From contig JASJOG010000041.1 in NCBI GenBank assembly GCA_030142905.1, positions 1,607,501 through 1,671,500 of the forward strand: DNA of 64,000 nucleotides. The letters are read 5' to 3'. The stretch comes from Heliopora coerulea. Its lineage: Eukaryota > Cnidaria > Anthozoa > Scleralcyonacea > Helioporidae. The position numbers were made by a program, and so were the translations under genes. Of the stretch, positions 14,064 to 63,900 are shown piece after piece (position 1 is the stretch's first letter; each line of letters starts with the position of its first letter). Below the pieces are notes generated by a model. That model searched no databases. It had not been told where the DNA came from and worked only from the letters and a program-made list of their open reading frames with translations.

Positions 14064-15684
14064 TGCAATGTTTCCATCTGGTTTGCATGCTCACAAATTG
14101 CCACCAAAAAATGATAATGTTTCTGTAGTTTTTGAGGCCAGTAGCACTCAACGTAAAAGAGAGGGGTACTTCGTGTAAAATTACACAGAAACATCATGAA
14201 ATGCAAATATTCAATCTGCCCAACATGTGACTGATGTTACATGTGACTGACATTACAGAGTTTACAGTTTAATATCTTGTACATGTGTTAATATTTTTGA
14301 AGCTATTATTGGTTTTTCTTATCTGGGGATATATAAAGAAACAACATGAATGACATTCGTGTGGTTGAGAATATTAGTTAGTTAGAGAAAAAATTATAAG
14401 GTTTTTTTGTGACTGACATTACACAAACATAATTTGTTACATTCAAGTTACTTATTTTGATGTTTATAAATGTCTGTTTGCCAATGAAACATATTCCTAG
14501 AAAAGATGCATCTCCAACTTGCAGGCAGTGGTAGTCAGACTTCCATACAAGTTTTATGGACAAGACAATGAAGATTCAAATTTACACTTTATTACTACAT
14601 CATGTGATCATTCAAAACATGTTCCAGTATGGAACTGCAGTAATTCTCAGAAACAGTACTTTGACTGGGAATAAATAAATTTTCTGTTAGATAAACTACT
14701 GTTTTGTCAAAAGCATAAATTATTTTAATGAGAATCCAAAATTCATTTCTATGGTTAATGTCAACTCTACCATGGAATTGCCCAACTGCCTTTTTAACTG
14801 TGGTCAACCAGTCTATCTAGATTTGTTTTAAGGATTAATATTTGAATGAGTATATGTTGGGTTTTTCATTTGAAAGTAGACATGTCATTGAACAGATCAT
14901 TAAATCATGCAAGCTGATGTTCCCAAATACGGGGGGATGATTTTTTTAGTGTGATTGAACAATATGTGAATTTAGTCTTATACTGACTGTATTTTGTCTA
15001 AAATAATAAAAAGAACTAATTCTTGGGAAGTGAAATTATGTTGAGAGTTTAGCTGCTCTGAATAATATGAGACCAGTAATTTCTCCTGAAATTTTAGCAA
15101 TCACTTTTTAATGTAATAAGAGATTTTCTGAACATATTAGACTTCAACTTTAAGCTAAATAGGACCAGTATCTTTTTTGTTAGATGTTTGAGGGAAAAGG
15201 TTATGGTCCAGCTTACTGAAAAAGTTTATTTATTTTATGCCACATAGTAGTGCATGTATTACCTTAGCTCACTTAACATGCTATAATTAAATTATGAGTA
15301 TGCTACTTCACCACCTGAATTAAGTAGTTAAGTACCATACACCATTTTCTTCATCATTGTTTTAAACAAAAATATGTATCCAAGAGTTTAACTTACCAAT
15401 AATCTGCTTGACGAATGTGATTGAAAGTTTTATTCTTTAAAGACTTTCTAAGGCAGCAGTACATTCTCTACACAATTTCATGCTGAAAGTCAAGGCGTGA
15501 TCAGAGAGACTGAGACCACAAAGTTTCCAGCTGTAAATAATATAAATGTTTCAAAAATACTTTTGTAAGAGAATTCATGTGTAAATACAATCACAAAGTC
15601 TGCTTGTTTGGGTAGTTTCACTCTATTAAACATTCATTAAGTCTCAACTACTCTTTATTTCTTCTGTAGTCAATACATAACACA

Positions 15685-15837
15685 ATGTCAAGTGCTGATG
15701 CACTGAAATTCCTTAGTGAACCAGCTACTCTAGCAAGTCTTGCAGCTGTGGCAGCTGCTGGTATGGCATACATGACTTCCAGACCAACTCCCCTTAAGTG
15801 CCCTGTGGATCCTGAAAAGCAATCAGTTGAAGTACCG
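15685..15837 (+). CDS. ACSL: ACSL exon 1
   Basis: Residues 1-51: start Met, membrane anchor (about 13-32) and the [13 protein letters not shown] linker (here [14 protein letters not shown]). Donor gtaagt, phase 0. Confidence 0.9.
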
Positions 15838-33459: not shown

Positions 33460-33499
<40 letters not shown>

Positions 33500-33830
33500 G
33501 TATATATTATTATATCGCTTACCTCAAAAAGTCACTACAGCCTGTTTCATCTTGAGGTAGAATCTTCAGGTGACTCTACCATATAATTCTATTTGCTCTA
33601 TCTGTGCGATATTGAGCCCTCTTTGTATTTCGTAAACCAAAACGTTCACGTATATGTATGTAGGTATGTACATATATATATATACATATATCAGGATTGA
33701 GTAACGTGCATAGGTATTTGGATAGGTTGTAGTTATAGGAGCCGATATATATAACTACAACCTATCCAAATACCTATGCACGTTACTCAATCCTATTATT
33801 CCTAATGACCACACTACTAAAGACATATAC

Positions 33831-33871
<41 letters not shown>

Positions 33872-33883
33872 CGTGTATATGTA

Positions 33884-33938
<55 letters not shown>

Positions 33939-43885: not shown

Positions 43886-44072
43886 TTACATAGTAGTAGA
43901 TTCAGTCTTTAAATTCTTTGCACCACCATCAGTCCCAAGCCCATTGTTACTATAGACCATATCAAGCTGGCTTTCTATTTTGTCTTTGGGTGGTTTATAG
44001 ACCAGCCAGGCCAGCCCAAAGAACGATACAGAAATGATTTTGCAGATCATTGTAACAACCAAAAACACATTA
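43886..44072 (-). CDS. SLCO4A1: SLCO shared exon 6 (terminal)
   Basis: SNVFLVVTMICKIISVSFFG, LAWLVYKPP and a hydrophilic tail ending ESTTM, with the TAA stop at 43886-43888. The acceptor is catttctag. Helix 12 plus 'YKP' is the usual OATP ending. Confidence 0.9.
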
Positions 44073-47000
44073 CTAGAAATGAAAGTAATCCCAAGATTAG
44101 AGTATAATAATCATGACAGCATAACATGCTGGTTTTGAACTGGGCTGGGCATCAGGCAAGGATTGGGATGTTTTACAATAAGCATACAGAAGGACAGAGG
44201 CATCTATTGAGTCATGTTTACCATAATTGCCAATTTTTTTGATAGAATTAAAAAATTTCCAGTTGATAATTCTATAAGAAATTTGGGGTATCAGAGGGAC
44301 CACTTCCTGTAAATCCATCAAAATAAAAAATTAGGAATTACTATTCCCAAGTAGTGATTAACTGATTAAGGGGGCAGGGCTCATCCCTTTGATGAGTAAA
44401 ATCATCTGGCATTAGCCACAGTAAAATACTAAAGTGCACTCTTGCCCCTTAATGGGTTAACAAAAGTTTATCTGTCTTGGACAATTTTCTACCAACAAGC
44501 AGGACTGCTCAGGGAGAGGGAGTTGCTGAAATTGCTAAGGGCCCTGAACAGTGGACAGCTGGGTTTCTGGGCACACAACAGCCAATATGTAAGGGGTAAC
44601 AAGAAGCATGTTAGGGCCCATCATGGCTATGAGTCTCCATAACCCTGGTTACTGGTCCTTTACCCCTAAATAGCTAGGCATTTGCAAGCACCCAGATAAC
44701 TTCTTTGTGGAGAGTAACATCCTTTTTTCCACTTGGATAACCATCAAGTGGATGGCAAATCTTGTTCACTGAATCCAACTTGCTCATGTGCCAGCTTGAT
44801 AAGTTATTCAGACTTTGAGTGTCCATTGTCTGCTCTACAAAGTCATCAACCAGGGTTCTGCCCTGGACCATCTGGGTGCCAGGTACCTGTGACCCTGGGG
44901 TCATACCTCTCAAAAACTTTTGAAATTTTGATTTAAGATAAATGGATATATTTCATCAAATCACCAGTGGCTAATAGTTTGCATGGTATGGTTCTAAATT
45001 TTAATAAATGATGGTCAATAATATTGCTTAAGTAAAAAAATCACTAGAGGTTTTCTTCTCACATATTTCATACTTTTTGAGTGCAGGCAGAAGGGTCTGC
45101 TTTGGTATAAATGCTGAACGTTACAGCTAAGTGCTGGGCAATACTGCCCACCATAAGCCAAACCTTGGTCAACCCACAGCCTTTGCTACTTAGGGGTTGC
45201 TTTCAACAGTACCAACTGGCTTTCTAGGCCATTCCATGAATGGCCTTTGATACTCTAGGCTAACTCTCTAAATGAGCTACAAGCTCATATAAACAATACA
45301 ACTTTTCTTATTAATAATATGTGTCTGTACCTTAAATCTGTGTTTTTATATTCCAAGCAGTTCCTCTCCACATCCTCTTCACAAGGGTCAGTCTCAGATA
45401 ATATGCAAATAGAATCTAGAAGTACTCCATATATTATGGGGGCTGGAATGAATGCCAAAACCCTAGTTACAATTTGCTGCACACCAAGTGCAAAGGACCC
45501 CTGGCTTTTTGGTACACACCTGCAATCAATGTGAAAATTGAAAAACATTTAACATGTAACATTTGTTTCAAACTAATTGAATGATTAAAAGTTCTTCAGT
45601 TTATTAGTAATGGAAGCTCACTAACATTCATTAAGAAAACACAAATTAAAGAGATCTACAAAATTGTGGTTGCTCTGCCTACAGAGCAATAGCCATGCAA
45701 CACTAAAGTCATGAGATCAAATTCTACTCATGCACAGTATTTGGTTTGGGAGTTTGATTAGGAACATGTTACAAGAGTTATATTATTTTAGCACACTTTC
45801 CCAACATTTTGAAGGTAATTTGGGTTTGTTTTCAGGGTTTACCTAGAATTATCTGAAATAAACAATCTCTGACCAGAAAGATATTTAATTTGATGAGCAT
45901 TCAGCCACTAGACTGAATTATCTGATTTAAGTGATCATCATCTAGGCATCACCGTGACTTTTTTCAGTACTTACCTTAGAGTTGCAGTAATGGCAGGGAT
46001 GTTGTTCACAAATGTGAAGGCAATTAGCAGGAACATGATGGCCAGAAAATAGATAATGGAATTGCAGGATTCAGCACAACCTCCATCATATGCCACTGTG
46101 ATGTTAGGAGGCAAGCAACTACAGTTAGTGTATACCTTGAATAAAAGTAAAAATGTCCCCTGTTAATTCATGAAATGGGTCAATGGTAAAATATTTAAAG
46201 TGTGCAATATGTCTTTACTTGGTGGCTACAGTACGTCTGTGCAGGACATTCTACTGCCAAGGGTAAAATCATTCCATAATTGATGAAAAACAAGGAGAGT
46301 TGGAAGTAAGATAATTAGGCCACTAGTAGTTACAGTACTTTCTTTTTTGTCTACTCTAAAATGATGCTCCACATAAAATCTTTCATATGAAGATTAGTTT
46401 TATTTACATATGAACAAAATCCAACTTACGTGTACTGGTAAAAGCTTTTGTACTAAGCCTTATTTTAGAGTAGTTATTTAAAATGGTGATTAGGAAATGG
46501 CCTTTTTTGGGCACCAAGGCCAGAGACAGATATTCTATTTTGCATGTGAAAGCACAAGTAACTTACAAAAAATGTTGTGCAAGAAATAAGACTGATAGCC
46601 ATAGCTTTTTATTAAACAACTCCACTCTTTTTTTCTGTCTAACAAATGATAGAACTCTGCTAAACCTATGGTTTATGGGTGACACATTTCTTCCCTTCAT
46701 CATGAAAAAATATGAAGTCTCTTTTTTGGCAATCTAGAGCAAACCTTTGTCAGCAACACCATGACTGACAGCACAATTACTTATACTGTCCAATGTAGCC
46801 AATTTGTATATTAGCAATATATACAGGCAAAAACGGTGAACATGCATCAAATCATTGCCAGTAGAAATCTGAATTGAAGAGGATGATACTATTTCATAGA
46901 CTATGTTAATATCAACAAATTGTCAAACCCCAAGTGAAAATAAATTTTCCTAACATACCCCACTCAGTATAAAGTGAGAAAATGCCCAAAGAGCAGCATG

Positions 47001-50000
47001 GAGCTTTTGCAATTTTTTACATAAATTTTAACATTGATGTATTTTTTTATAACAACAGTGTATACCCTGTGACCCACTATCGAGTATATTCATAGCTTTG
47101 CCCCCTTGTTTCAAAATTTTAACTGAGTGTCTTGGCTTCAAAATGCCCTGTACTGTCTTTCCACAATTCACTGATCTGTTCTGATCAAAGAAAACTGACT
47201 AACCAACATTAGCCCTGCTCAGCTCTACTAACTTAACCTTCTTTGTTATGATATGATAGACAATTTTGAATAATAATAATGTTCTCCCTTCTAGAACCTA
47301 ATGGAAGAACTTTATCAAATATTTATCAGTTTATACAAGAATTTACTTTACCAATTCACCACCTTGCTCCGTTTTCGTCTTGCATCCAGCGTAACAAGGT
47401 GAGAAATATGTTGTTTGATCTTCTTTTGTGCAGATTGGAATATAATTATCTTGTTTGCAGCTGCAGTTTTGGTTTGTGCTACAGACATCAAGTGAACCAA
47501 ATGTTCTAAAGTAGCAAAACAAATGAATGACAAGATGTCAATTGCCCCATTTTTGACTTAGCCTTCAAGTCATTGAGAGGTGAGGCTCGTCTGCTCAACA
47601 ATTAAAATTGTCTGCCATTACCCAGAGTAAAATGTTAAAATGTGCCCTTGCCCCTAAAGGGTTAACCTAATTCCTTGAGGCCTACACTTTATATACTTTT
47701 GTTAATGATTTGATTGAATATCCTTCTTGCAATTACCAGTAGTGTCCCCTTGTGCATTATTCCCACAAGTTTTAATGCATCTTCAAAAGTACCCCTTCTC
47801 ATACAAACAATGTCATAATGAGTGGTAAAGCAATCATTCAACCTCATACCACTGAATTGAGAAATTTCCAAAAACAATTTTTCCACTCAATTTCTAATAG
47901 AGGAATCCCTGTTAAATTTTGGCTGAAAATCCTACTGGAATCCCAGAATATTACACAGTTGTAGAATTCTGGAGGGAATCCTGTTAGATTAGCAATTGGA
48001 TTTCTTATTAATGCAAATTTCTCTTGGGAATTGTAAAAATACAGTTTTGGTGAACTTTGATGTGTATGTACTGTAGTTCTACCAAAATGTAGCATGCAAC
48101 TGTCCTGGACATGATCATGGGGCACTACAAACTACAAAAAATTCATCACTTATTAACTGGTATTGTTCTATCACAGTTTGCACCAAATCAAAATGCCCAT
48201 TTCCCCATCCCTCAACCTGTTTTTACAGACAATTATCCTTAACACACAGATGAGGTCAGCTGGAATACACATTCACTCAAATGGAATTACTTTGTTAAAC
48301 AAATTAAGCTCTCTGCAAATATCCCAACTATAACTTCCTCTGCTTACTTGTTAATCACACTTTGCATGATGGAAATACTAATACTGGAAATTGTTTTTCC
48401 AGCTGTCACAGTCATTGCATGATTTCACCAAGTATCAATTAATACAACAATGATTACCTGTTGAAATATGGTGTTGTCACTCCTGCTATATTCTCATTTG
48501 GACATCGGACCAAAAAAATTAGAATTGGAAATAATGCCACAAATGCAATGATAGTGCAAGCTCTTATACACTGACGACATGTCCATTGAAACTTTCGAAT
48601 CATGCAACCTCCCAAAAGCATTCCCAAAATCCCACCTGGAATGATTACCGCTCCAGCATAATAACTTGCATTGCTAGACTTCAGATGAAATTGTGATTCC
48701 AAGTATTTTGGGAAGAATGTTGAAGTACCTGCCACTGCAAACCCCTCTGCTGTTCCAGCTATTGTGACGAAAAGGAAAACTTTGTTGGTGAAAAGGGATT
48801 TTAAGGCAGGCAAGAAATGGCCCGTTGTATGAGGTTCTTCTCCATCAGGAACTGTGTCTGGTGCTATCTTTTTTTGTTCATTCAAAGTTTTCACAGAAGG
48901 TATTTCCCTTGGGAAACCAAGGAGTGGAATGCTGGCCAGCAGAGCACAAACCCCTCCAAAAAGGTAGCCCAACCACCATGCTCCAATCCAGCCGTTGTCA
49001 TCTTGCTTCAGCTCAATACCATCTGGCTGTAATGAAAAAGAAAAAAAGATAAGCTTTAAAGCAATCTTTGGTGAACAGGCAATTAATAATGATGGTTCAT
49101 CATGTGGGTTATTCTATCATATATATAAATACTAGAACTGTTTAACCCTTTTTGTATGTTTTCTAAGTTTAAGTGCATTTATTTATACTGGACAACTCTA
49201 TCAGTTACCCGAGCTGTTCTCCCTAGAGGTCCAGTAAAGGCCACCCCTCATGGGTCTGGAGTACCCAGAGTAAACCTGCAATGCTTGTTAGAGTCAAACT
49301 GGACAACACTCTTCTCACATGTGGCCAAGGTAACTTCAATCAGATAACTACCTGGAGCCAGAATCAAACTGTGGAGAGACATGCAACTACCACTGTGCCA
49401 CCAGCACACCCAAGTTAAGATAATTATATCAATTGTCTCTTCATTTCTGCCAGATAACAGGCTAAGACCCAGACGTACCTTACTGGTGCTATTATTGTAA
49501 TCTACACTACACTGTACCATACTAGTCAACTCTCATATCCTCAGGGAGACTCGGACTTTTTCTTGAAAATTAATTACATTTCACTCTTGTTTAACGTTAT
49601 AATCCTCTTGGAAGAAAACATGTTGATTCTGCACAAACTGAGCAATCTAAAATCAAGAGATGTTCTTTGCTTGATGTTACTGGTTCATCACACAACTGTA
49701 ACCTGGTTACTTCAGTAGGCACATTTTGTGAGGTCCCAAAAAGGTCTAGACCACTCCATGGACATGCAGCCAGTCAAAAATCATCAGACTCTAATAGCTA
49801 TGCCACACCGTTCAGCACTACACTATACAACATCATGCCACTGCATATAATTCTACACAGCACTGCACTCTTCTACATTTATCAATTAGCCCAATTATTA
49901 TATTACCTTATGTTCATTAAATAAGCCTAACACACACCAGCTACTATTACTATAAGAAGCGAACCTATCGTTTATAAAACTTAGACTTTAGAGTTCAGTC

Positions 50001-50823
50001 TGCCTGCATTTTGCGCAACCATTAAAACAAATCACAAAGACGATTCTCTTAACCATACCAGCGCAATATCGACGTAGATACTGAGAAAATAGCCGCCGAG
50101 GAGAAAGCCGAGTCCGGGGCCAAGTGTCGATACCGCATAATAGATTCCCAAGTAAACACCGGAATTCTTGCGAGAAGCATTCTCGTCTAAGTACGCTGAA
50201 CCGATGTTATAGACAGGAGAGGCACCGGCCCCGATCAGTAATTGTCCTGCAACAAACACTAGTAAATGATACCATTTAGAGCTCTTGCAATTGCCCTCGC
50301 CAGCGTCGGAAGCGTCGAGCAACGTTTGGTTGCTTCGACACAGATCGGCCGTTTGAGCTACGGCAGGTTCATAATCGCCGACCAATATCTGAGGTAAAGC
50401 GAAGATCAAACAACCTAAGCCTAGAAAAACGGCTCCAGCGCCGAGCCACTTAGGTTTGTGACGATGACCGAAGTAGCTAACCACCAAGGTCAAGATTGTA
50501 TTCCCGATATCATAGCAGGAGAAGATGCCTCCAACTTGGCTACTTTGTAGGAAGTATCTCTTCTCGATCGAGGTGATCACCACTCCAGAAAGTCCTGTTA
50601 CAATCAAACCTTGCGTACAAACAAGCAGGCAACAGAAGAAGAGGATCCATCTTGAAGACAAACAACACTGTAGGCTATGAGGTCTGCACTTCAGCCAGCC
50701 GTAACTCGAGATGTCGCCTCTTGGACAAATCTCGTCGGACAACTGTGGTGTTGTTCTGTTGCTTCCGTCCATAAGTCTTTGTGTTTGCAATGAACGGCCC
50801 ATTTCAATATTTGTTGAATGCAT
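43886..50823 (-). CDS. SLCO4A1: Organic anion transporter (OATP), SLCO4A1-like; first exon A plus shared exons 2-6
   Basis: Joining the complements of 50059-50823, 48458-49026, 47352-47505, 45975-46135, 45331-45519 and 43886-44072 gives one 674-aa frame with all phases matched. OATPs are 12-helix plasma-membrane carriers for bile acids, steroid and thyroid conjugates and other amphipathic anions. Family marks: VITSIEKRY and SYFGHRHKPKWLG in exon 1; IGAGASPVYNIGSAYLDENA; the OATP signature DDNGWIGAWWLGYL at the start of exon 2; and the Kazal-like extracellular loop with paired Cys (NCSCKQDNYIPIC, SPCYAGC) in exon 3. Then come VYTNCSC and PAITATLRCVPKSQGSFALG across exons 4-5, and a last helix with SFFGLAWLVYKP in exon 6. 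The order and wording fit SLCO4A1 best. Met1 at 50823 has a weak context; Met8 at 50802 (GAAATGG) aligns with the starts of the other first exons and is the likelier start (667 aa). Confidence 0.9.
44358..44460. mobile_element. TTAA-type MITE, SLCO intron 5 side
   Basis: TTAA at both ends, interior 'gtaaaatcatctggcattag' and right end 'gccccttaatgggttaa'. It lies between SLCO exons 5 and 6. Confidence 0.7.
45331..45519 (-). CDS. SLCO4A1: SLCO shared exon 5
   Basis: RCVPKSQGSFALGVQQIVTR, VLAFIPAPIIYGVLLDSICI and an extracellular segment with CEEDVERNCLEYKNTDL. The block RC.....SFALG.Q....R.L...P.P...G is diagnostic of OATPs. Acceptor gattgcag, donor gtacag, phase 2. Confidence 0.9.
45975..46135 (-). 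CDS. SLCO4A1: SLCO shared exon 4
   Basis: VYTNCSCLPPNITVAYDGGC, AESCNSIIYFLAIMFLLIAF, TFVNNIPAITATL: the end of the Cys-rich loop followed by a helix. Acceptor attcaag, donor gtaagt, phase 2 exit. Confidence 0.88.
47352..47505 (-). CDS. SLCO4A1: SLCO shared exon 3, Kazal-like loop
   Basis: Encodes about residues 445-496, RTFGSLDVCSTNQNCSCKQD, NYIPICTKED, YFSPCYAGCKTKTEQGGEL. The regularly spaced Cys are those of the large OATP extracellular loop 5. The acceptor is tttag. The donor gtaaag was chosen over a nearer gtggtg because only it keeps exon 4 in frame. Confidence 0.87.
47560..47665. mobile_element. TTAA-type MITE, left end degraded, SLCO intron 2
   Basis: 'ttaaaattgtctgccattac', 'cccttgcccctaaagggttaa' match the right half of the family. 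Confidence 0.55.
48458..49026 (-). CDS. SLCO4A1: SLCO shared exon 2
   Basis: Begins after a long T-rich acceptor (…tttttcattacag) with PDGIELKQDDNGWIGAWWLG, the OATP signature. It continues through GFPREIP, the cytosolic loop and GTAEGFAVAGTSTFFPKYLE, with further helices up to CPNENIAGVTTPYFN. The donor is gtaatc; it exits in phase 2. Confidence 0.92.
49176..49415 (-). mobile_element. tRNA-derived SINE, copy 3, SLCO intron 1
   Basis: Reverse complement of the 8241 and 21946 copies: 'tgtgctggtggcacagtggt' (A-box-like), then 'gtccagtttgactctaacaa' and 'ctggacctctagggagaaca'. It lies in the intron joining exon A to exon 2. Confidence 0.75.
50059..50823 (-). CDS. SLCO4A1: SLCO alternative first exon A (proximal)
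   Basis: Encodes residues 1-255: a cytosolic N-terminus, then roughly the first five or six helices. Landmarks are GYGW-like SSYGWLKCRPHSLQ, VVITSIEKRYFLQSSQVGGI, SYFGHRHKPKWLG, AQTADLC, SAYLDENASRKNSGVYLGIY and GGYFLSIYVDIAL. The donor gtatgg at 50058 is in phase 0. It is the only one of the four whose last codon is Leu (CTG) rather than Gln (CAG). It lies next to exon 2. Confidence 0.9.
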
Positions 50824-51212
50824 AAGAGCTATTATCTATTTGGTGAATGCCATTAGGTTCCCCACCTTTGATATGCCTGCACACGTAAACCACACCGGGG
50901 CGTTAAATTATACTCTAATTGACTCTTGACAATGACTCTTTGCAATGTCGCTACGAACGTCACGTTACAGACGAACGACACACAATAAAAGCGGCAACGA
51001 ATGGCAAGCGGTTTGATGCCATGTTTGGTACCTTGTTTGTTTCATGATTTACCAACGGGAGAAAAGGATGTTATTGTGCTTTATAAAGCAGCTATGGGGA
51101 ATCCTGGTGTTTCGTTCCCGTCGAAAAACACGTTATTGTGCTTTATAAAGTGGTATTAGGGATCCTCAGGTTCCGTTGTTTCCGTGGAAACGCGATGAAG
51201 TTGTGGAAACCT

Positions 51213-51350
51213 GAACAGAAAGCTTTCATGATAATCTGACATTGCCGAAGTCAACTGAATCCCGCTCGAATCAACATTTTCAGTTGACTTCGGCAGGGTC
51301 CGATTATCATGAAAACTTTCTGTTCGTGTATATCTCTGAGGATGATTCTG
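51213..51350. mobile_element. Deleted copy of the palindromic tRNA-like family
   Basis: The arms 'gaacagaaagctttcatgat...gccgaagtcaact' and their reverse complement are intact, but the tRNA-like core is reduced to 'gaatcccgctcgaatcaac'. It ends with 'tctctgaggatgattctgaa', as in the other copies. Confidence 0.6.
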
Positions 51351-52720
51351 AAATTGAGGAAACCTGCCTTGCAGGTCCTTAGATTAGTTTGTTCTCAGGA
51401 AGTTGGGGTTGGTTGTGGAGACAGAATAACGACAATGGACGTCATGGAATGTTAGAGTCATGGTGATATTTCTATTTTTTATTTTGGCTGAAGAAGGTTT
51501 GTTTAGTCGGTAAACTGTTCAGTGTGTGATTTTAAAGTGGAGGTGCTGCATAGGCAGTATCGGGCGACGTGTGAAAAGCCCTTAGGGTCAAGAAATTGCC
51601 AAAACTTTAAGGAAAAATTATTGAAGTTTCTAGCGGAGTCCTGACGTTTCAATGGAGCGTCTAAAACGTTTCCAAAACGTCGGTGTTCTCTACCCTGCAT
51701 TTCGACGGTTCCCAGACACTTTTTACGGTTTACAACTATTCAATATGATGATTTGCGTCAGGGAAATGACCACAATGGGCACATACATAATACCCTGGGG
51801 CGGTCTTGGTGTCCTTCCTGAGGAAACCCATTTTCAGGATACTCAATCCGCAACCTAACTCTATGCAACAAAGTCTATTTATATATCTGACTGGAGGATG
51901 ATCAAACGTAGTTCGTTATAAGTTGGCGCTAGCACGGCTTGGCAGATACTATGAACTGTATTGTTTAGCTGTGGGAAGCCAAGCCGTGACGCACAAATCG
52001 ACATTTCTTTGTATATGTTGAACTGATTTTTCATTTGTTCTACCGAAACCGTGTAAAAAAAGAAAACGTCGCTTCGTGCAAATCATTCGGTGGAAAACAG
52101 TCGAAAAGGTTGTTTTACCCAAAAAAGAAATCCAAATTTTCATGAAAAGGTTCGTGCACTAAATACATTCTGAATATTGTTAAACACAGGTAATTTTGTG
52201 CGTTATGCATTAGGAAAACAACCTAAAACTCTTCCTCCTACAAACATCGAGTCACCATCACGTTTGACCGTGACCTTGGCTTTGCTTTTCTTGACATTCA
52301 ACAGAGGAAAGGTTTTAATAGACTCATACTTAAGCAAATTACTTAAACTGTTATAAAATGTTAGGTTCTGTTGGATTGACTATTTTTCTCTGACTTCCAA
52401 ATCACTGAAAATCGTGTATTTCAGACATGACAGCTCGGAAACAAATGTGCAATCCCAAAATGTTTGAAACAATCTTTTAGATGTAAGACCACTTGGAGCT
52501 GTCAGACTCGTCTCATCAAGATCTTATCACGGTTGCAAAAAATACAATTATGACAGATTTCAAAAGCGCATTTAGTTTAATTTGGCTCCTGGAATAGTCC
52601 AAAGTTAATTTAAATCATCTTTTGCAGCCGTACAAAAAATGTAGGAGACACGAGTCAGCGCGATTAGCCAAGCTGACTGGTCTCGTCGGCATTTTAGGAG
52701 CCGTGTAACATGGAGAGGAG

Positions 52721-53071
52721 TTGAAGGACCAACAGATACTCATCCTAGGCGAGATCACGGCAGGTGGAAGAAATTACCGTCTTCCCGGCTTCGTGGTCAC
52801 ATGGGACAAGCGGATGACTCGCAAGAAAAAAAAAAATTCCCATATCAGCACCTCTTTCCGGGTTACTCGGCATACCAAGATGAATTTCTATTTTCGTGAG
52901 CAAGATAACTTCGTTTATTTGACGCGTACTGGAGTGGACTCACATCCTGCAGTTCGGCTTGCCAAGCAACTCGGTTTCATATTAACAACATCCGTCGAAC
53001 AGATTCGTGAAAATAATGTCAGAACAGCGCAGCAATCCTTAGAGTCAGTACTAAGGAACGAATTGACTTAA
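52721..53071 (+). CDS. Hypothetical open reading frame, 116 codons
   Basis: Starts MKDQQILILGEITAGGRNYR and ends SLESVLRNELT. It is basic in the middle (KRMTRKKKKN), with a mixed-polarity C-terminal half (TGVDSHPAVRLAKQLGFILT) that looks protein-like. No family is recognised, no splice partners are seen, and it lies inside a probable SLCO intron on the opposite strand. It could be a retroelement fragment or chance. Confidence 0.2.
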   Translation: MKDQQILILGEITAGGRNYRLPGFVVTWDKRMTRKKKKNSHISTSFRVTRHTKMNFYFREQDNFVYLTRTGVDSHPAVRLAKQLGFILTTSVEQIRENNVRTAQQSLESVLRNELT

Positions 53072-55029
53072 AAGACATATAGAAACTTGAAAATGACGGT
53101 GCATTTCAGCAGGCAACTTATCAAATGCAAATATGCATTGTTTCTAGTTTTTATCTCCTAGTTTTATTCTTTCCTTAGTAATATATCTTTATATATCTTT
53201 TTATTTCCATCGGTTCATTACGATCTAACTTCGCCATTCACTATGGTAAACGTGCCACCCTTCCTAAACAAATATTTGCGTAGCCATCACAACTAATTTG
53301 TTGTTCCAAAATGAAATTTCTCCACTGAGTTCCGATTGGTAAATGGCTTCGTTGCTAGTCAACAGATACAGATTTATTTGTATTAAACTGGCGTCGGAGG
53401 TGTGGCAAGGACCTGGGGGAGTAGTTCCTCAATGAATAGAATGGGGGTGAGGTGGAGGAAGTTTTCATCTCAATGCAAGAATCTTAGCGGACATGACAGG
53501 AATGTCGCCGGCGTGACGTGTCGTTTCAAAGGAGTTCGAGAAAACTCGACGCGGTTACGTGGACGTGAATGACAATGAGGTCTTAGAATAGAATGTATGT
53601 ACTTGACGTCATAGCTGCCATGTTGGTATTCCTTAAGAAAAGAATTTTGATCATCTTCTTTGGTCAAGTACACCAGCATGGCCGCCATCCTCTTCGTTGG
53701 TTGAATCTCTGTGGACTTAGTGCGTACGCTTTATATCATTTGCCTTCCAAGACTGATGATTTAAGTCCTAAGAGTTTTCTTCGAGCTGTTCAGTCTATGC
53801 CTAAGACGTAACGAACAGCATTAGGGAGTTAACGGAAACGGGACTTGGACATCAAGGAAGACGGGCTATACAACAAGATTTCCCATCCAGAACAAAAGAT
53901 GAATAACTTGTGGTCGGTGGAATGATCTACACGCCGCCCTGGCTCTACACGAGACGTGAGAATGAGCATTTCGTCGTTGTCAAGACGACACTGGGTCTTA
54001 AAACATGTAGAGTTTTGAGCTATATCTAACAGAAAACGTTCGTCGATGTTTTGCAGAAAGAAAAAGAACGTGAGTTTTAATATGCATGGTTTGCTTCCTG
54101 GCCATTAGATTTAAAGTACTCGGTTTACTGGCGTCGGCGTTGCACCTTTTTTAAACTCCCTGTTTCCACGTTTTCACCAGAACGTTAGCCGCTTAAAAGG
54201 CGGACAGCTTTGGGCTGTATTTCGCGAAAAACGGTAATCGACCAGCTAGAATTGCTGCATGTGTTCAGCACGATGAAAAAAGAACATCCCGAGTTCAGCA
54301 TGTGTGATTGGCTTGCAGTGTCGATGTTTCGCTGGAAATGCTTGGCATAAACTTGGATATACAACGACAGACTTGACTGGATATTGATTAACAGACATGG
54401 ATTGGCAGACAGATTGGATATTACAAAACAGACTTCGCACCCATATATCATATCCGGAAGAAGTCAAACGTGACGCAACATCAGCCTTCCGCGTAAAAGA
54501 ATACCGGTATTTATTCTAAAGCGAAGAATCATTCGCGCATGATTGGAGCGGCCAGCTCAGAGAATTCCATGTGGCCAAAATCATTCGGACAACTCAGATC
54601 AACTACAGCGTTTGTTCAGAACCAGACTGAATTTAAATGGGTATTCCTTAATAAACTTTGATGCAAAGCTTTATCCCAGGAAAGTAGTAAGGTAAAAGTT
54701 GTATTTTAAATGTAGATCAATCTATTAAATTTTATGTCATTAGCCAACATGGCCAATTCAACATCAATTAACTGAAAGGCCACCTTGTCAAAATAAATTA
54801 AAGTTAAATTTTTGGTGCACAAATAAATTTTCTCCCAAAATTTTTGACGTAGATCAGTTAAGAAATTTACCCCAGTGTCAGAAGAGGAAGCTCCCTAGCG
54901 ACAGCTACAACTTCAAAAGGTACAACATGGTCACTAAGAAAGGAGCTTAGCTTCACTCGAAACCAAGGGTCAACTAACAATGAACCTGAAGAACCATCTT
55001 TCATTTTGCAGTAATACCGTAAAACATAC

Positions 55030-55770
55030 CTGGAAAATATCGACGTAAATTCCGAGTAAATGTCCTCCAAGGAGGAAACCGATTCCGATACCGATTGCTG
55101 TCGCTGAGTAGTACATTGCAAGATACATGCCAGAATTTCGGCGTGATGTGTTCTCGTCCACATACGCTGCACCAAGGTTGTAAATTGGAGAAGAACCCAC
55201 TCCGATAATAGCTTGCCCAACGATAAACACTAGTATAATGTACCACTTAGAGCTCTTGCAATTTTCCACGCTAGCGCTTAAAGCGTTCAGCAAAGTCCGA
55301 TTGTTTTCACACAAATCTGCAGTTTGACCTACGACAGGTTCATACTCGCCGACTAATAGTTGAGGTAACGCGAAGATCAGACTACCTATGCCTAGAATAA
55401 ATGATCCAACACCAAGCCACTTTGGTTTATGGCGGTGACCAAAATAACTGATTACTACGGTCGAGATGGTATTGGCGATTTCATAGAAAGCGAAGATAAA
55501 TCCGATCTGGCTACTTTGAAAGAAATATCTCTTCTCAATTGATGTTACTACTACCGGTGAAATGCCTGCGACGATGAAGGCATCGCTCAAAACCAGTAGG
55601 CAACAACAGACGAGAATCCATCTCGGAGATAAACAAGATTGTAAATGATTTGGTCTGTAGGTGAACCAACCATAACCTCTATGCCCATTTTCCTTATCAT
55701 TAACGCTTGCAACTGGTAACATGTGGTTCGATTCTCTTCTGTCGTCGGATTCTCTTCTGTCGTTACCCAT
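55030..55770 (-). CDS. SLCO4A1: SLCO alternative first exon B
   Basis: An intact 247-codon open exon from ATG to a phase-0 donor (CAG|gtatgt). It is collinear with exon A: GYGWFTYRPNHLQSCLSPRW, VVTSIEKRYFFQSSQIGFIF, SYFGHRHKPKWLGVGSFILG, AQT-like GQTADLCENNRTLL, IIGVGSSPIYNLGAAYVDEN, GHLLGIYVDIFQ. The N-terminal tail has a doubled 'DDRRES' (SDDRRESDDRRESN-like). There is no own exon 2 between it and exon A, so it most likely splices to 49026 and gives a protein of about 666 aa. Confidence 0.8.
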
Positions 55771-57129
55771 AGATAAGGTAGAATTCAGAATGTTATTTTT
55801 ATTATTAAAGCCTACTTGAAGGTTCGAAAGAGCAATTTCCTATGTCCGTTACGCCCCGATAGCGTCCTTTTGTATTCCATTAGGTTTGCTCATTTGACCA
55901 GCAGAGCGTCACATGCAGGAAAGAAGATTAGGCCATTAATGAGAATGGTAGACTGATGTTCTCTTCATTACTGTCTCTCCTCTCAACACTTTCTTTTGTG
56001 GTAAACACCTGTGAGAGTTCTTAAGCAGCTGAAGCCGCGAAAACACGGTTCACCATTCTACGAAAGGTTGTTGCTATTGCTAAATGTCATAAACGAGGAC
56101 GAGATTTTAAGTGCATTTGTACGTCTTTCGTTGCCATGCTACAATTGCCAAGGATAGCTCTTCCACCTGCTGACTTATTTCCGTTAAAAACAGGACAAAA
56201 GTTAAACCGAGCAGTGTGTGCATTATCTGCTTTGATAAATAATAAACACTTTTTTTTCTGGGGATTCTCGACTTCATCTAAATCATCTTCTTTGGTCTAA
56301 AATTTTCTCAGTTGTCTGTCAAAATTTTAGTGTAAAGAAGGTGATTGAGGTAAAGTCGAAAATTCACTGAAAGAAACTGCTTGTGAATTACCGAAATGGA
56401 TAATGCACACATTCCTCGGTTTAACTTTTATGCTGTTTTTATTGAGGAAATCGGTTAACAGAGGCTTATTTCAGTAAAGATTACAGATTTAGTGAATAAC
56501 GAGGACATCGACAAAGTTTTTTTGTTTTGTTTTTGGTGAGGTTATCCCTCAATGCCCAATGTCCGATAAATCGGACCTAGCGAACGAATGAAAAAAAATG
56601 ACATTTGCCGGTGACATTCTTGTCTTGTTTGTTACTCTCTATTTTTGGAGCAAAAACTCCCCCTCGTCTCGCTCCCATTCTAATTACAGGGGAGCTACTC
56701 CCAGTAACCCCCTACCCACTTCCGTCGCCTGTGCGAAGACGTACAAACAATTTTATTATTGTTGACCAAAGAGTAAGCCTTCAGCCAATCACATTGCACA
56801 GTGTCGAATTGTCTTGTTCGAACCACAAACCCGGCTTCGCCCAGTTGTTGGTTACCACTCGGGAGTGAGCGTCTATTGGTTTCCGTATCAGCGTCAGGAG
56901 GTTTTCTGACAAATGGGGACAAGGTCGATATTGGTGTTAAAGATCCAAGAGCCCTCAACGGAAAGTTTTGAGCTTGCAAGGAGCACAAGTTGTGCTCTGT
57001 TGGAGCACATACCTCGTGCGCTTGGTACCTAGACCGTCGCGCGGTAGACAGAATGAGTGAAAAACTTCTTTGTCGTTGAAACCTTTTGGGTACAGTCGAT
57101 GTAATGAAATTGTTACATCAATACGCCAA
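55771..57129. other. Spacer between first exons B and C
   Basis: Possible 5' flank of exon B at 55771-55850. The rest has no supported exon on either strand; short open frames at 56.6-57.0 kb lack any recognisable content. Confidence 0.5.
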
Positions 57130-57351
57130 TCTGGCAAAAATCGACCGTGTTGGTATTAAATTCGATCGCACAAGATTTGGTCCAGGAAAGCAGGAGAAAT
57201 CGTTCAAACGTTTGCGCACATTTTTGACACCCCTAGTCAAAGTAGGTTGGTACGCTTGTGATCGCAGCTTGCATTTCGCCCCTACCTTACAAAGAGTGCT
57301 TTGAATCAGAGGAGAGTACCTTCACTTTGGAAAAAAACACAACATAAGAAG
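57130..57351 (-). repeat. Downstream flank of cassette C, homologous to that of D
   Basis: Shared blocks with 59870-60075 include 'tcgac.gtgttgg.attaa.ttcgatcg', 'tttgacaccc...gtcaaa..(g/a)gttcg/tacgc' and 'gaatca..g.agag/aatt.actt...ataagaagt'. This shows that the unit that duplicated included intron sequence as well as the exon. Confidence 0.55.
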
Positions 57352-57540
57352 TTAAAAAACTCATTCATAATTCACGAAGAAAACACAAAAGATTTTGGCT
57401 CCTAATTAGTATTCTGTAAATCGGATATAGAATACTAATTAGAATTATGAACTTTTCCCTTCGATTTTCTACTTCAAAATTTACTGAGACTTCAAAATAA
57501 ATGGCAAACATGGCCATTATTTAAATATATTCGTATTTTA
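57352..57540 (+). repeat. Dispersed repeat, copy 2, inside cassette C's intron
   Basis: Near-identical to 22228-22400 ('gaattatgaacttttccctt', 'cgattttctacttcaaaatt', 'aacatggccatt'). It lies between exon C and its cassette flank, where cassette D has nothing, so it inserted after C and D separated. Confidence 0.7.
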
Positions 57541-57631
57541 AGAAAGTTACAATATTCGCGTCCGATCAAGATGCGAGTATTGTAACTGAAAAGCATACCT
57601 GGGCAATATCTACTGTAATTGAAAAGCATAC

Positions 57632-58354
57632 CTGGGCAATATCTATGTAAATAGTCAAAAAATGTCCCCCAAGGATGAAACCCATTCCGGAGCCGATTAT
57701 TGACACTGCGTAGTATATTCCCAGATAAACGCCAGAATTCTCGCGTGATGTGTTCTCGTCAAGAGACGCTGCACCAAGGTTGTAAACTGGAGAACAGCCC
57801 GCTCCGATGATAAATTGCCCCACAGCAAACACAAGCATGTTGTACCACTTAGAGCTCTTGCAATTTGTCTCGCTAGCGTTCGAAGTGTTGAGCAACATTT
57901 GATTGTTCTGGCATAAGTCTGCAGTTTGGGCTATGACCGGTTCGTACTGGCCAATCAATAGCTGAGGTAACGCGAAGATCAGACAACCTAAACCCAGAAC
58001 GAGTGATCCAAGACCTAGCCACTTTGGTTTATGGTAATGACCAAAATAACTGACAACTATGGTCAAGATGGTATTGCCAATTTCATAGAAAGCGTAGATA
58101 ACCCCGATCTGGCTACTTTGTAAGAAATATCTCTTCTCAATTGACGTTACAACTACAGGTAAAACGCCTGTGACGATGAATGATTCCGTAAAGATTAGCA
58201 TGGAACAACAGACGAGAATCCATCTCGGAGATAGACAAGATTGTAAATGATTTGGTCTGTAAGCAAACCATCCATAACCTCTGCATTCATGTGCCGTATC
58301 ATTGTCAGTTGCAACAGGTAGCTCGGTCGTGGATTGTCTCCTGTCCTTGGCCAT
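57632..58354 (-). CDS. SLCO4A1: SLCO alternative first exon C
   Basis: An intact 241-codon exon starting MAKDRRQSTTELPVATDND, with GYGWFAYRPNHLQSCLSPRW, VVTSIEKRYFLQSSQIGVIY, SYFGHYHKPKWLGLGSLVLG, IIGAGCSPVYNLGAASLDEN and GHFLTIYIDIAQ. The phase-0 donor is gtatgc at 57631. A 33-base tandem copy of the exon end makes a second donor at 57598 that would add 11 in-frame codons (VCFSITVDIAQ). The predicted protein with exons 2-6 is 660 or 671 aa. Confidence 0.8.
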
Positions 58355-58430
58355 ACCTCAGAACTCAGAAAGAAGTATTTCTATCATTAAAGTGGGCGTA
58401 AAGTTTCGCAATAGCCGCTTCGCATGCCCA
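58355..58430 (-). promoter_or_regulatory. Conserved 5' flank of first exon C
   Basis: Homologous to the flank of exon D (ctttaatga about 30-40 bases before the ATG, then ttgcgaaact further up). The role is inferred from position only. Confidence 0.35.
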
Positions 58431-59309
58431 TTAAGCCTCGACGCTATTTTGATTACCATTAAATTTTAGTCATTCATATTGTATTCAAAAGGCCTTACAA
58501 AGACCTTCAATATTCAAAGATTCACTTTTCAAAGTAATTTTTTATCACACATGTCAACTCTCTTTTTCAAGTTTATTTTGATGTCTGTAGTACTGGCCAT
58601 AGTTTTGAGTACCTTTGAAAAACGTCGAAGTTTGTAGACTTGACCGTAGTTCTCCCGTACGCATTTTGTCGTTGGATGTCTCAACTGATCCGTCGATTAG
58701 TGAGAGTGTAGAATGTAAATTATTTTTCATTAAACTTTTAAGTGCTGTTAATTTATCTTGACGTTATTTTTCAAACGTGTTCATACTTGATACGAATTTA
58801 TATTGCAGTGAGAGTTCGTGTTTTATGAACCTCGTTGTAGTGTTTGAGAATGACTTCTTGTCTTGGAAGAATGACCGGGTAAAAGGAGTGGGGAGATAGA
58901 GAGAAAAAGCGGGAGAGTGGACATTGTAAGAGAGACCGTTCAGAGAGCAGAAAGTAAAGAATTGTTCATATTCAAAAGATAGTGGTTAATATTCTAAATT
59001 CATCAAAGTGCTTACTATTAACTGCTCATTCTAAGAACGATAGATGCGAAAATAGCTTGAAATAACCATATCAAAGAGTTCGAATATTTTCATCCAGAGT
59101 TTCTTTTCGGAATGCACTGACGACACCGAAGGACGGTTAGAATTGTAGTAAATGACGTCATTTGGAATAACCCTTTTCCCCCACCTGGGAGAATGAAGAG
59201 AGAACTGGTTGATTTAATATATGGAATTTAAATTATGCGACTAACAATGAAGTTTTATAAAGAAAATACAAGTTCTGATTGAAGAGACAAGATATTGCAG
59301 GAACAAATA

Positions 59310-59720
59310 TTAAAAAATAAAGGAGTTTAAGAAAATGAATGACAGAAAAAATACAAGGAAGGAACAAAATAAAGAAACAGGTAAAAAAAGAAATAAAAAT
59401 AAACCAAAGAGAAAAAAGGGACAAAATGTAGAAACAGGTAAAAATAAAAAGAAAGCAAAATGAGACAAGAAAGGAACGAAATGAAGAAACAGGTACGAAA
59501 AGAAGGAACAAAAAGAGACAAGAATTAAAAAACAAACTGAAGAAACAGGTAAAAGAAACAAAGAAACAAAATGAAGAAACAGGTAAAAAGAGAAACCAAA
59601 AAGAGAGAAGAAAGGAACAAAATGAAGAAAGAGGTGAAAAACCGAAACAAAAAGAGACAAGAAAGAAAGAAACAAAATGAAGAAACAGGCACAAAAAGAA
59701 ACCAAGAAGAGAAACAGAAA
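59310..59720 (+). repeat. Polypurine minisatellite between first exons C and D
   Basis: About seven imperfect units of 35-60 bases, each opening near 'gaagaaacaggtaaaa' and ending 'aggaacaaaat'. Nearly all A/G on the plus strand. The minus strand is therefore open in several frames (Phe/Leu/Ser/Pro/Val only). Confidence 0.85.
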
Positions 59721-59869
59721 TGGCAGTAAGTATCGGAAGAGGCGTAAACCTGAGATCATGAACTTAAAAAATGCTGTCTAATTACAAGTAGTTAACCACT
59801 GACTCACGTTGAAGCCCATGACCTAAGTGTCAATATTCAATACAAAGCCTTAGCTGCTGGGAGATTAAA

Positions 59870-60075
59870 ACTACCGAAATCGACTGTGTTGGGATTAATT
59901 TCGATCGGGCATCATTTGCTCCGGTAAAGTAGACAAATTTTATGACACCCTCAATCAAAATGGGTTCGCTAGTCCTGGAATGGCAGTTTTCCTCTTACCC
60001 CTATTTTGTAAATCTTGTGTTGAATCACGGAAAATTTACTTCGTTTCGCGAAAATTAAAATATAAGAAGTCAATA
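59870..60075 (-). repeat. Downstream flank of cassette D, homologous to that of C
   Basis: Partner of 57130-57351. Here it abuts exon D almost directly. In cassette C the matching flank is separated from the exon by the dispersed repeat at 57352-57540. Confidence 0.55.
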
Positions 60076-60114
60076 TCTGGCACGATTTTTTAGAATTTGA
60101 ACTGTAAACAATAC

Positions 60115-60837
60115 CTGGACGATATCGACGTAAATCGCCAGAAAGATTCCTCCAAGAAGGAAGCCAATTCCGGAGCCGATTGCTGCCGCCGCGTAATATA
60201 TTCCAAGATAAACTCCAGAATTTTCGCGTGATGCATTCTCGTCCAGATACGCCGAACCCAGATTGAAAATAGGAGAAGAGCCCGCTCCGATAATAACTTG
60301 TCCCACGACAAACACCAGTATATTATACCAGTGAAAGTTCTTGCCGTCTTTCTCGCCTGCGTTAATAGCATTAAACAACGTTCGATTGTTTTGGCACAAG
60401 TCAGTAGTTTGGGCTGTAACAGGTTCATAGTCGCCGACCAGTAGCTGAGGTAACGCGAAGACCAGACAACCTAAGCCCAGAACAATTGACCCAATACCAA
60501 GCCACTTTGGTTTATGGCGATAACCAAAATAACTAACCACTATGGTGAACATGGTATTGCCAATGTCATAAGAAGCGAAGATAACTCCGACCTGGCTACT
60601 TCGTAAAAAATATCTTCTCTCAATAGATGTTACGACCACAGCCGAAAGTCCTGAGATGATGAAGGATTGGGTGAAGATCAATAGGCAACAACAGACAAGA
60701 ATCCATCTCGGACACAAACAAGATTGTAAAAGATTTGGTCGGCAAAAGAGCCAACCATAACCTCTGTTCTGGTTTTCCGTACCATTATCAGTTCCAACCG
60801 CCAGTTCCGTCTTCGATACACTGTTGTCTTTGGCCAT
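60115..60837 (-). CDS. SLCO4A1: SLCO alternative first exon D (most distal)
   Basis: An intact 241-codon exon starting MAKDNSVSKTELAVGTDNG, with GYGWLFCRPNLLQSCLCPRW, VVTSIERRYFLRSSQVGVIF, SYFGYRHKPKWLGIGSIVLG, IIGAGSSPIFNLGSAYLDEN and GIFLAIYVDIVQ. The phase-0 donor is CAG|gtattg at 60114. It shares MAKD and TEL..(A/G)TDN with exon C, so C and D are the closest pair. It would need an intron of about 11 kb to reach exon 2. Confidence 0.8.
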
Positions 60838-60905
60838 CGATCAGGTAGTAGAATCAAGAGTCCGCTTTTCATTAAAGCCAGGGTGAAGTTACGCAATTGC
60901 TTTTG
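60838..60905 (-). promoter_or_regulatory. Conserved 5' flank of first exon D
   Basis: Just upstream of the ATG, 'ctttaatga' and a 'gcgtaact/gcgaaact'-type block occur in the same order and spacing as at 58355-58430; B (55771-55850) has 'ctttaataataa'. Conserved spacing next to each start suggests 5' UTR or core promoter duplicated with the exon. Confidence 0.35.
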
Positions 60906-63900
60906 TCTATGTTGTCATTAAAAAAAAGTGTTTACTTTTCACAAACATTTTTCCCGCGCATGACAATTCAAATTTATTTTAGTGCTCGTAGCAATAACCA
61001 ATTTTTTAAGTCTTCAGAAGAGCTTAGTTAATGAACCAAATAGTGACGGACCGCAGTTCTCGTAGACGGTTTTTGACTGGTAAGTTTGCATAAATAACTG
61101 TTCCCCAGTCCAAATATTGCAGGAAGCAATATATTTATCATTAACTCTCTCGAGCTCGATTAATTTTAATTACCTCAGTTGTCAAACATGTTTTTACTTG
61201 ACGTATGTTTACCGTGGAATGTGAGCTCTAGTGTAATGGCTTATGTAACGGCTTGTGTAATAATACGCTTGCAAATTTTATTAGCTTTTTTAGAAAATCT
61301 GGTGGATGCATAAAGCCGAATCTCCACACGACTTTTTCAGCGTTCTGTAATCGGGGAGAAATAAATATTTAGAGTGGGTAAGAAATTTGGTGAAAATAAT
61401 TGACAAAAACTTGAAGTTGCGCCAGAGGAAGTACAGATATCTCAAGGAGATTTTTGACCAGGCTACATAGCATTTCTGTGATTCTCTTCCGTGATCACGT
61501 GGGTTCTTCGTAATATTTCGCGCCGAATTCGAAGACCATTATTGTGACAATGGTGCGAGGTCGTAAAAGAAGTTTGCATAAGAATAACGACGGCACGTTT
61601 GTTTTACTGGCCAAACTGGCAAATAGCGTATTTGAGGAAACCTGGATAAGAAATTGTATGAGGTTTAGTTCGGAAGGCGAAATGGCCTGGAATGGGAAGT
61701 AAATTCGATCTGAAGACAACATGGCGTGGAAGAAGTGGCAGCAAACATCCAAAAGGCGAAGCAGCCGTTTTACTCTGTTACCGTCCGTAAGTATTGTATT
61801 ATTATACCATGATATCATAGTCTGACACCTTTACTAAACTGTACGTGGTTAAAAGTGGACAAGTGGTTATTTTTCATAAAAACCTTAATGTCCGCCAAAG
61901 GTATTTCGACGTTTACCGTCAGTGCATTTGTCGGTTTGTAAATGCTGGAAGCCTCCTTGCACATTAAGAGTGGCCGTGTTAATACAACTCCAAATTAATC
62001 TTTAGTTTCTGGCCCACAACCCTCATCCAAGAGCGAAGAAAACAAGTTCACATGGGCGTGCTGGCTGGGGCCGGGGGGATTCAGCTTCCCCAGATTAGAG
62101 GAAACAACATTTTTCGGGTAAAGCAAAAATATTCGGGCAGTAGCCGTGAAAAAAATGAAACAAATATTTTAGATACATGATTGTATGTATGTATATATAT
62201 AATCATGGGCTCTTTCTCCATTAGGTTATAAATTATATCAAGCACAAAGTAAAAAACTTTTTAAAACAAAACATATATTTCTGGGACCAGTCACTTCTTC
62301 AGATCTGTCCATCCAAAGTTAGATCAAAATACTTTAAGTTACTAACATCTTTCTTATGTACCAGGTAAACTTGGTTAGTAACCAATACATTTGTTCATTT
62401 GGTGGTTACAGTGAGAGATGGTTCAAAATGCAGATGACTAGGTACATGATATATCTACCTCCAGCTCATCAAACTTCAACCATGCCCTATCCCACAATCC
62501 CATCACACACCTGGAGGCATTACATATTTCTTGGGTTCACCTGAGAATGGTGGTAGTGGCTGTGGTGAAGTCTTTCAGAGAGGGTTGAGGCTAAGTAAAT
62601 GGTTTGATGATGCAAGACACTACTTTTATCATGAAGTGGCCAACTTCATTGTTGCCTTATAGCCCCTGAAAAAACTATACCAAGATTAATATACATGAAC
62701 AAGATGACAGTTGCTGTATGAGATAAAGTACCATACTACTGATATATGTCATTACTACTACTCTAATGCAGGTGCAACAGTCTGATTGGTTATGCTATTA
62801 AATAACTAATAGGCAATAGATGTTGAGTAAATATGGGATGACAATTGAGCCAGGTTTGTACTCTTATCAAATGTCAACTCAGAAATTTCAATCCTAATAT
62901 GTAATTGTTACAGTAAATATACATATGCTTAATTTTTTTCCCATGGAGGTTCTACTTTGATGCTCTTCAAAAACATGCTAGTTTTATCAGCCACTAAAAA
63001 CCATGCACTTCTTCAGAGTGCATTGCTCTTTAGGGGGTTCCCAATTCAAGGGTGCCTTATGGCACATTGGCTATTAATGGATTAACCCATTGATGGGCAA
63101 GGAGACACTTTGAATTTTATTCTGGTTAAAGCCAGATGATTATATTCAGCAGGGAGGGTGGGGTGTGCCTCTTAACACCCGAAGCTCATCACTGTGGAAT
63201 GTGTTATAGCTTGGCATTAGCTAATAGAGGACACTCTTTCCCCTTTATTGGTTTATCAACACAATTGCTGGAGATTGAGAATGATAGCAAAACTTTTCAA
63301 GACCGAGCTTTGTGTCATATGCCAAAGTTATGGGCTGAGAGACCATGTTGAACAAACCAAGCCTTTGATAATTCTTGTCATGTAAAATTAAGTGACTCCA
63401 ATAATGTAGTTTGCACACCATATTGACTCCATAATGGGGTAGACCCACCTCCCAAATAGGCATGCAACATTCAAAGGGATTTTTCACATGAAGTTGATAT
63501 CTCATAATATTTTAACTTCAATAATGTAATAACAACTTTTAAAATATACAAATATTTGAGGATTTTTTTCCCATTTCAATGACCACATGATGATCTCACA
63601 ACATGTTATTGAAAAAAAGGAACTTCATTTAAGAAATACCATAGGGGTTTCAATATCCACACCCAGAAATCCATTTGGTTCCGTATTTCTTTTATAAGAT
63701 AATGATAGATCAATACCTGTTAACCTCTTTAATGCATTGACAAAGAGAGCAATTCTTCCAAAAATTATTAACTGCCAATCAGAACCTAGCTTGACAAGAT
63801 TAAACCCTGCTCAACAAAGTTAAGCCACTTCAATGAGTTGGGAAGAAAAGTTTTTTTAGCTAAAATATTAGAAAGTTAAGCAACATACCAAATGTTTGAA

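Follow-up and report, generated by a model that had tools for sequence, protein, structure and literature searches.

The 64,000-nucleotide stretch of the Heliopora coerulea genome considered here (the window; C346:1607501-1671500 of a 430-Mb, 769-contig genome) contains a locus of the OATP/SLCO transporter family in which four homologous first exons, D, C, B and A, lie in this order on the minus strand and are followed by one five-exon constant set. This genomic observation of four variable starts and a single constant set is confirmed: exons A, B, C and D comprise 255, 247, 241 and 241 codons, respectively, and each starts with an ATG, is free of stops on translation and ends in phase 0 at the same residue (donors GTATGG, GTATGT, GTATGC and GTATTG), which bears out the four intact ATG-to-donor frames of a preliminary description of this DNA. 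Exon 2 likewise begins in phase 0 and is compatible with the donor phase of all four. The first exons are arranged in tandem on one strand, 1.8-4.2 kb apart, and are 59-71% identical at the protein level, a likeness too great for chance. The constant set has GT-AG introns and encodes 419 codons plus a stop, and the limits of its exons 3 to 6 are now set as given below. Joined to the four starts, it would yield products of 660-674 residues (671 with a second donor of exon C). The features are listed in the order of the minus strand (TM, transmembrane helix; omega, the ratio of nonsynonymous to synonymous substitution rates, dN/dS; LRT, likelihood-ratio test statistic).

60838-60937, minus strand: 100 bases upstream of D, aligning with those of C; CTTTAAT 40 bases before the ATG
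60115-60837, minus strand: variable first exon D, 241 codons, donor CAG/GTATTG; branch omega 0.35, LRT against 1 of 16.6
58355-58454, minus strand: 100 bases upstream of C, aligning with those of B and D; CTTTAAT 38 bases before the ATG
57632-58354, minus strand: variable first exon C, 241 codons, donor CAG/GTATGC; branch omega 0.32, LRT against 1 of 13.7
57599-57631 (wider span 57599-57645), minus strand: 33-base tandem duplication of the 3′ end and donor of exon C, present also in the near-identical record P0121
55771-55870, minus strand: 100 bases upstream of B, aligning with those of C, not D; CTTTAAT 40 bases before the ATG; candidate core promoter or leader
55030-55770, minus strand: variable first exon B, 247 codons, donor CAG/GTATGT; branch omega 0.80, not different from 1
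50059-50823, minus strand: variable first exon A, 255 codons, donor CTG/GTATGG; nearest to the constant exons
48458-49026, minus strand: constant exon 2, OATP signature, TM6 to TM9; no further copy of this type in the genome search
47352-47505, minus strand: constant exon 3, Kazal-like loop
45975-46135, minus strand: constant exon 4, end of the loop and TM10
45331-45519, minus strand: constant exon 5, TM11
43886-44072, minus strand: constant exon 6, TM12, C-terminal tail and stop codon

The duplication at the end of exon C provides a second in-frame donor, the use of which would add 11 residues (VCFSITVDIAQ) in the loop between TM5 and TM6.

The four-to-one count in the window, its flanks and the genome

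The preliminary description had likened the locus to the UGT1 and protocadherin clusters, with four variable first exons and one constant set, and our searches for further copies support the four-to-one layout. Within the window, tblastn with A-D and the constant half (E up to 1) returned these exons only, together with one 40-residue piece of A (E 0.13). The approximately 79 kb of flanking sequence (about 50 kb upstream and about 30 kb downstream) is without an OATP exon, its lone match at E<=1 being a 21% identical piece of P0002 (E 0.26), one of two SLCO4C1-like proteins of Dendronephthya gigantea, P0001 and P0002. Across the whole genome, exon A recovered A-D at 62-100% identity, followed by score by a 36% match to an N-terminal half on contig C106, with short partial matches reaching up to 47%. 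Exon 2, which was the only query in the genome-wide test of the constant set, recovered itself and then, by score, the C106 exon at 37%, with no other match above 38%. A second copy of this exon 2 type elsewhere in the genome is rejected by the same search. The single exon 2-6 set of the preliminary description thus holds in the window and the flanks, and genome-wide by way of exon 2.

The other OATP loci of this genome follow a different plan, which pairs one junction exon with one exon 2. Nineteen of their exons reach the junction and 18 exon 2 matches begin at it; by position, 18 of the 19 junction exons have their own, distinct downstream exon 2, the exception lying on C49. Ten pairs lie within 2.1 kb, six are separated by 8-12 kb and two by 22-25 kb, the last eight (8-25 kb) being looser pairings; the same region may be represented on both C49 and C158. 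These other OATP exons include groups on C412, C49 and C158 with six, five and five junction exons and six, four and five exon 2 matches, respectively, and the C49 and C158 matches are alike in score and may represent haplotypes. In the C106 paralog, an ordinary gene, the match to the N-terminal half ends and the exon 2 match begins at the junction residues of the window. This shared break makes the position of the intron look ancestral; what is unusual here is the array of exons in front of it.

Two further origins were considered for A-D. Haplotype duplication is rejected by their divergence in DNA (77-80% identity among B-D pairs and 65-67% between A and B, C or D), and gene conversion as the main force is rejected by third-position identities of 0.54-0.85 among B-D in 40-codon windows, with no homogenised block.

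Extremely improbable, in our estimate, is an assembly artefact in which complete tandem genes had their exons 2-6 collapsed or lost. Such an arrangement has a parallel in the two complete, related Dendronephthya proteins P0001 and P0002, which come from contigs of one reported length. Against this, the locus lies inside a 1.96-Mb contig with no N in the window or in the flanks read, and the collapse would have to delete all of exons 2-6 yet keep every first exon with its distinct flanks. A together with exon 2 (12031), and B together with C (29644), also occur on contigs from this species or one near to it; here and below, foreign contigs are labelled by size, and exons are assigned to one contig from equal reported length only. 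Misassembly, named in the preliminary description among the things that might undo its reading, is accordingly unlikely after the window, flank and genome-wide searches.

The transport domain and its break at the junction

The OATP domain (PF03137) spans the junction of exon C with exon 2 without a break (residues 45-597, E 3.6e-151, 504.6 bits versus a cut-off of 25.8), and exons A, B and D on their own match positions 1-199 of the 545 of the profile. Hydropathy of the four spliced products gives five hydrophobic regions per variable exon and seven in the constant half, and, together with an AlphaFold model of P0001, points to twelve helices, with TM9 and TM10 separated by a Kazal-like loop rich in cysteine; the Kazal_2 match is barely over its cut-off (23.1 versus 22.8 bits). 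In the P0001 model (pLDDT 86), TM5 occupies residues 211-239 and TM6 residues 265-284, with the junction (248/249) in the loop between them. On this model, the variable exon is the N-terminal tail plus TM1-5, with TM6 in constant exon 2; the earlier assignment of about the first six helices to the variable exon was wrong.

We compared individual residues in OATP1B1 numbering, with the named residues taken from PMC10709409. As in the human OATP1B1, 1C1 and 2A1 structures, the locus has PF03137 across the junction, the Kazal-like loop and several characteristic residues: E56, K/R57 and an acid at 74 are present in all four starts, and R580, K361 and E364 in the constant half. It differs from OATP1B1 in that the aromatic hub of Y352, F356 and F386 is replaced by V, S and G, and in that K41 and K49 are not kept. 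Among themselves, the four starts differ in TM1 (40, 41, 42, 45, 48 and 49), TM2 (70-72), at 185, and in TM5 (216, 217 and 220); for example, A, B, C and D have Q, D, E and Q at 40, G, A, S and S at 41, and G, P, P and A at 49. TM1 is the most variable helix (15/25 columns versus 10/25 in TM3, with helix limits set by hand), exceeded by the N-terminal tail (33/43 columns) and the TM3-4 loop (21/33). In the TM3-4 loop, where A-C read NCKSSKW, D has DGKNFHW, without the second loop cysteine, which is also missing in the related record P0123.

The preliminary description had proposed that the first exons swap half of the substrate path. This is plausible, but overstated: in PMC10709409, the core binding hub of OATP1B1 and most of its described ligand contacts are placed in the C-terminal half, so that an exchange of TM1-5 need not change the substrates much.

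Selection, relatives and splice signals of the first exons

Pairwise dN/dS by the NG86, YN00 and maximum-likelihood methods, respectively, is 0.41, 0.62 and 0.54 for B-C, 0.38, 0.54 and 0.50 for B-D, and 0.25, 0.39 and 0.34 for C-D; for A against B, C and D, the NG86 values are 0.22, 0.13 and 0.14, at saturated dS. When B, C and D (241 codons) are fitted with a codon model on a star tree, omega is 0.44, with an LRT of 31.3 against 1. By branch, C and D are each below 1 (see the list above) and are under purifying selection. For B, the LRT of its branch omega against 1 is 0.46; constraint on this intact exon may have loosened, or its changes may be diversifying. The test of dN/dS proposed in the preliminary description thus comes out below 1 for B-D jointly and for C and D singly, and not clearly so for B, and its contention that the four are not dead duplicates holds for all four as regards intact frames and for C and D, not B, as regards purifying selection. 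Under simulated neutral drift with 0.1-0.25 changes per site, 0.4-6% of runs leave a single copy free of stops.

A search of other genomes with the four exons gave 179 matches; from the best 120 of these, the top 46 open reading frames (ORFs) were compared, and 45 of the 46 reach the junction, four of these 45 being from the window species or its near kin. The foreign records are cluster representatives, and absences among them may reflect the 90% clustering or missed gene calls. In the closely related records P0121-P0123, too, B, C and D are intact. The search with exon C plus the constant half (best 120 of 419 matches) had as its best among the matches listed P0001 (64% identity, 96% coverage) and P0002 (52%), each of which is one complete protein, and contained no second isoform among those 120. 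Of the four starts, A is the closest to P0001 (64% versus 49-53%). A first-exon tree of 49 rows (leaving out of 57 three outgroups, one cut-off row and four near-identical copies) unites B, C and D with a clade we term type III (99/91), recovers a type II clade (99/99) and places A and the A-like rows outside both; FastTree on a larger row set joins A to the group of P0001 (0.98). The B/C/D lineage is older than the divergence of several related genomes. An alignment scan of viral contigs and genome contigs with the four exons found no relative.

Three clades of exon 2 are distinguished in these genomes, I (0.80), IIa (0.99) and IIb (0.89), and they are at least 49% identical to the window exon 2 (P0241-P0256). 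Several contigs hold representatives of more than one first-exon type (four on each of 204536 and 252437, three on 8443 and two on 358958). The three starts of contig 8443 (A, II and III) occur with one exon 2 of clade I, contig 166094 has a type II start with a clade I exon 2, and contig 2905 has a type II start with exon 2 of both clades. Together with contigs 358958 and 771146 (see below), these associations speak both for and against a constant set shared by several starts in other species.

At the junction itself, BLAST similarity among A-D stops no more than about 10 bases from the donors, and 300 bases of the intron beyond them have no likeness above shuffles in any of the six A-D pairs. 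The codon of the GT donor, V, comes next after the junction in 45/45 of the related ORFs that reach it, and in 20/41 of the ORFs outside the window species and its near kin, V is itself followed by S or R, the residues expected from GTNAGN. We regard it as very unlikely that B, C and D are used without exon 2, be it as stand-alone five-helix proteins read into the intron, by trans-splicing or with unrecognised partner exons. Every frame does stay open for some codons beyond its donor, and there is a precedent in the protocadherin beta cluster, whose variable exons can be used as single exons (PMC7811963). Nevertheless, the end of similarity at the donors and the constancy of the V codon speak against such use, a five-helix piece without TM6-12 and the Kazal loop would not be a complete MFS (major facilitator superfamily) carrier, and about 143 kb of sequence contained no further OATP-like exon that could serve as a partner.

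Upstream of the ATGs, the 100 bases of B-C and of C-D align above all 200 shuffles (0/200 each), B-D reaches p 0.07, and no pair containing A exceeds the shuffles. The CTTTAAT block common to B, C and D, 38-40 bases before the ATG, may be a leader element or core promoter. For A, a possible 3′ splice site (TTTACGTGTGCAG/G, by eye) lies 53 bases before the ATG (50870-50900, minus strand), and this exon may have a leader exon.

Several neighbouring elements were seen in the window. Low-complexity CT-rich repeats at 59236-59763, between C and D, have frames that are open by composition. Palindromic repeats at 51213-51325 (near A) and 56185-56441 (near B-C) are possibly small DNA transposons and could have aided duplication. 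Plus-strand gene fragments at about 15670-35111, tail to tail with the OATP gene, resemble by eye a long-chain acyl-CoA synthetase and include a weak AMP-binding Pfam match at 26252-26626, below the cut-off; the only other Pfam match among the ten further ORFs compared, to L27, was weak and likewise below the cut-off.

A probable variable-first-exon cluster of OATPs, its possible origin and its meaning

Taken together, the common phase-0 donor, the genome-wide four-to-one count, the selection on C and D and the unbroken PF03137 make it likely that this is a variable-first-exon cluster of an OATP/SLCO carrier with the MFS fold, comparable to UGT1 and the protocadherins, with each first exon cis-spliced to exon 2. 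In the mechanism we envisage, each of D, C, B and A would start its own transcript and supply the N-terminal tail and TM1-5; splicing would skip the intervening first exons and join the chosen donor to the single exon 2; and the constant set would add TM6-12 with the Kazal-like loop. The outcome would be four full-length transporters (five with the second donor of exon C) with TM6-12 in common. As judged from gene anatomy, this mechanism is well supported; we infer from it the separate promoters, the splicing of B-D to exon 2 and the differences in transport. The products probably differ in substrate range and in the place or time of their production.

Several observations weigh against this reading. 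At the protein level, the OATP1B1 pairs K41-E185, K49-D70 and D198-K568 are kept in none of the four starts. The splice signals include a D donor with T at +5 and an A donor preceded by CTG, and in B-D transcripts spliced to the possible site before A, a stop would be reached within a few codons. Among the best 120 of 419 and 120 of 179 matches, there is no spliced protein whose start is of the B/C/D type, and the best spliced relative among the matches listed, P0001, is closest to A. Elsewhere, type III starts occur with an exon 2 of clade IIa or IIb (contigs 358958 and 771146), and Dendronephthya P0002 combines a type II start with its own IIb constant half; on these grounds, the linked first exons of other genomes may belong to neighbouring complete genes. 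The type III associations favour an alternative that we regard as unlikely, namely that only A works as a first exon, with B, C and D being decaying or non-transporter leftovers of a neighbouring type III gene lacking its constant half. The grouping of B, C and D with type III, the branch omega of B, which is not below 1, and the exon 2 search of this genome, which found no IIa- or IIb-like exon 2, are all in keeping with such leftovers. However, the C and D branches are each below 1, neutral drift would seldom leave a copy stop-free, all four donors are kept, and the three exons are intact in P0121-P0123, all of which speak against this alternative.

How such a cluster arose can be proposed more tentatively. 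One possible history, which we hold to be somewhat less probable than not, is that the octocoral system is old and that adjacent OATP genes merged as an upstream gene lost its constant half, its first exons adopting the downstream constant exons; the arrays would then have expanded in each lineage (B/C/D here, and paired type III starts on 204536 and 252437), and the resulting carriers would be chimeras whose TM1-5 can be exchanged. Accordingly, B-D could have been adopted by the constant set of A after the loss of their own.

The closest known parallels (PMC1885805) are UGT1 (UGT1A), UGT2A and GCNT2, which likewise have tandem homologous first exons for an N-terminal, substrate-recognising part, one constant set and lineage-specific birth of first exons. 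Spliced mRNAs are described there but are predictions for the octocoral locus, which encodes a membrane transporter and has only four first exons. In that paper, Li and Wu (2007) called the UGT1, GCNT2 and UGT2A layouts vertebrate-specific. The alpha and gamma protocadherins (PMC7811963) also have large tandem variable exons, one constant set and a plan of donors joined to a common acceptor, but the break at the OATP locus falls inside the transport domain. In the literature searched (titles and abstract openings among the matches listed, with few subscription journals), neither a solute carrier nor a cnidarian was described as having such a cluster.

If the four starts are used, one locus would make four OATPs in which TM1-5 are swapped against a fixed TM6-12, and the UGT1/protocadherin plan would be seen in a solute carrier and, as it appears, in a cnidarian. 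If the cluster did arise because a neighbouring gene lost its constant half, this would offer a testable route to clusters of this kind, and the products themselves, as natural chimeras, would help to ask what part of an MFS carrier determines its choice of substrate.

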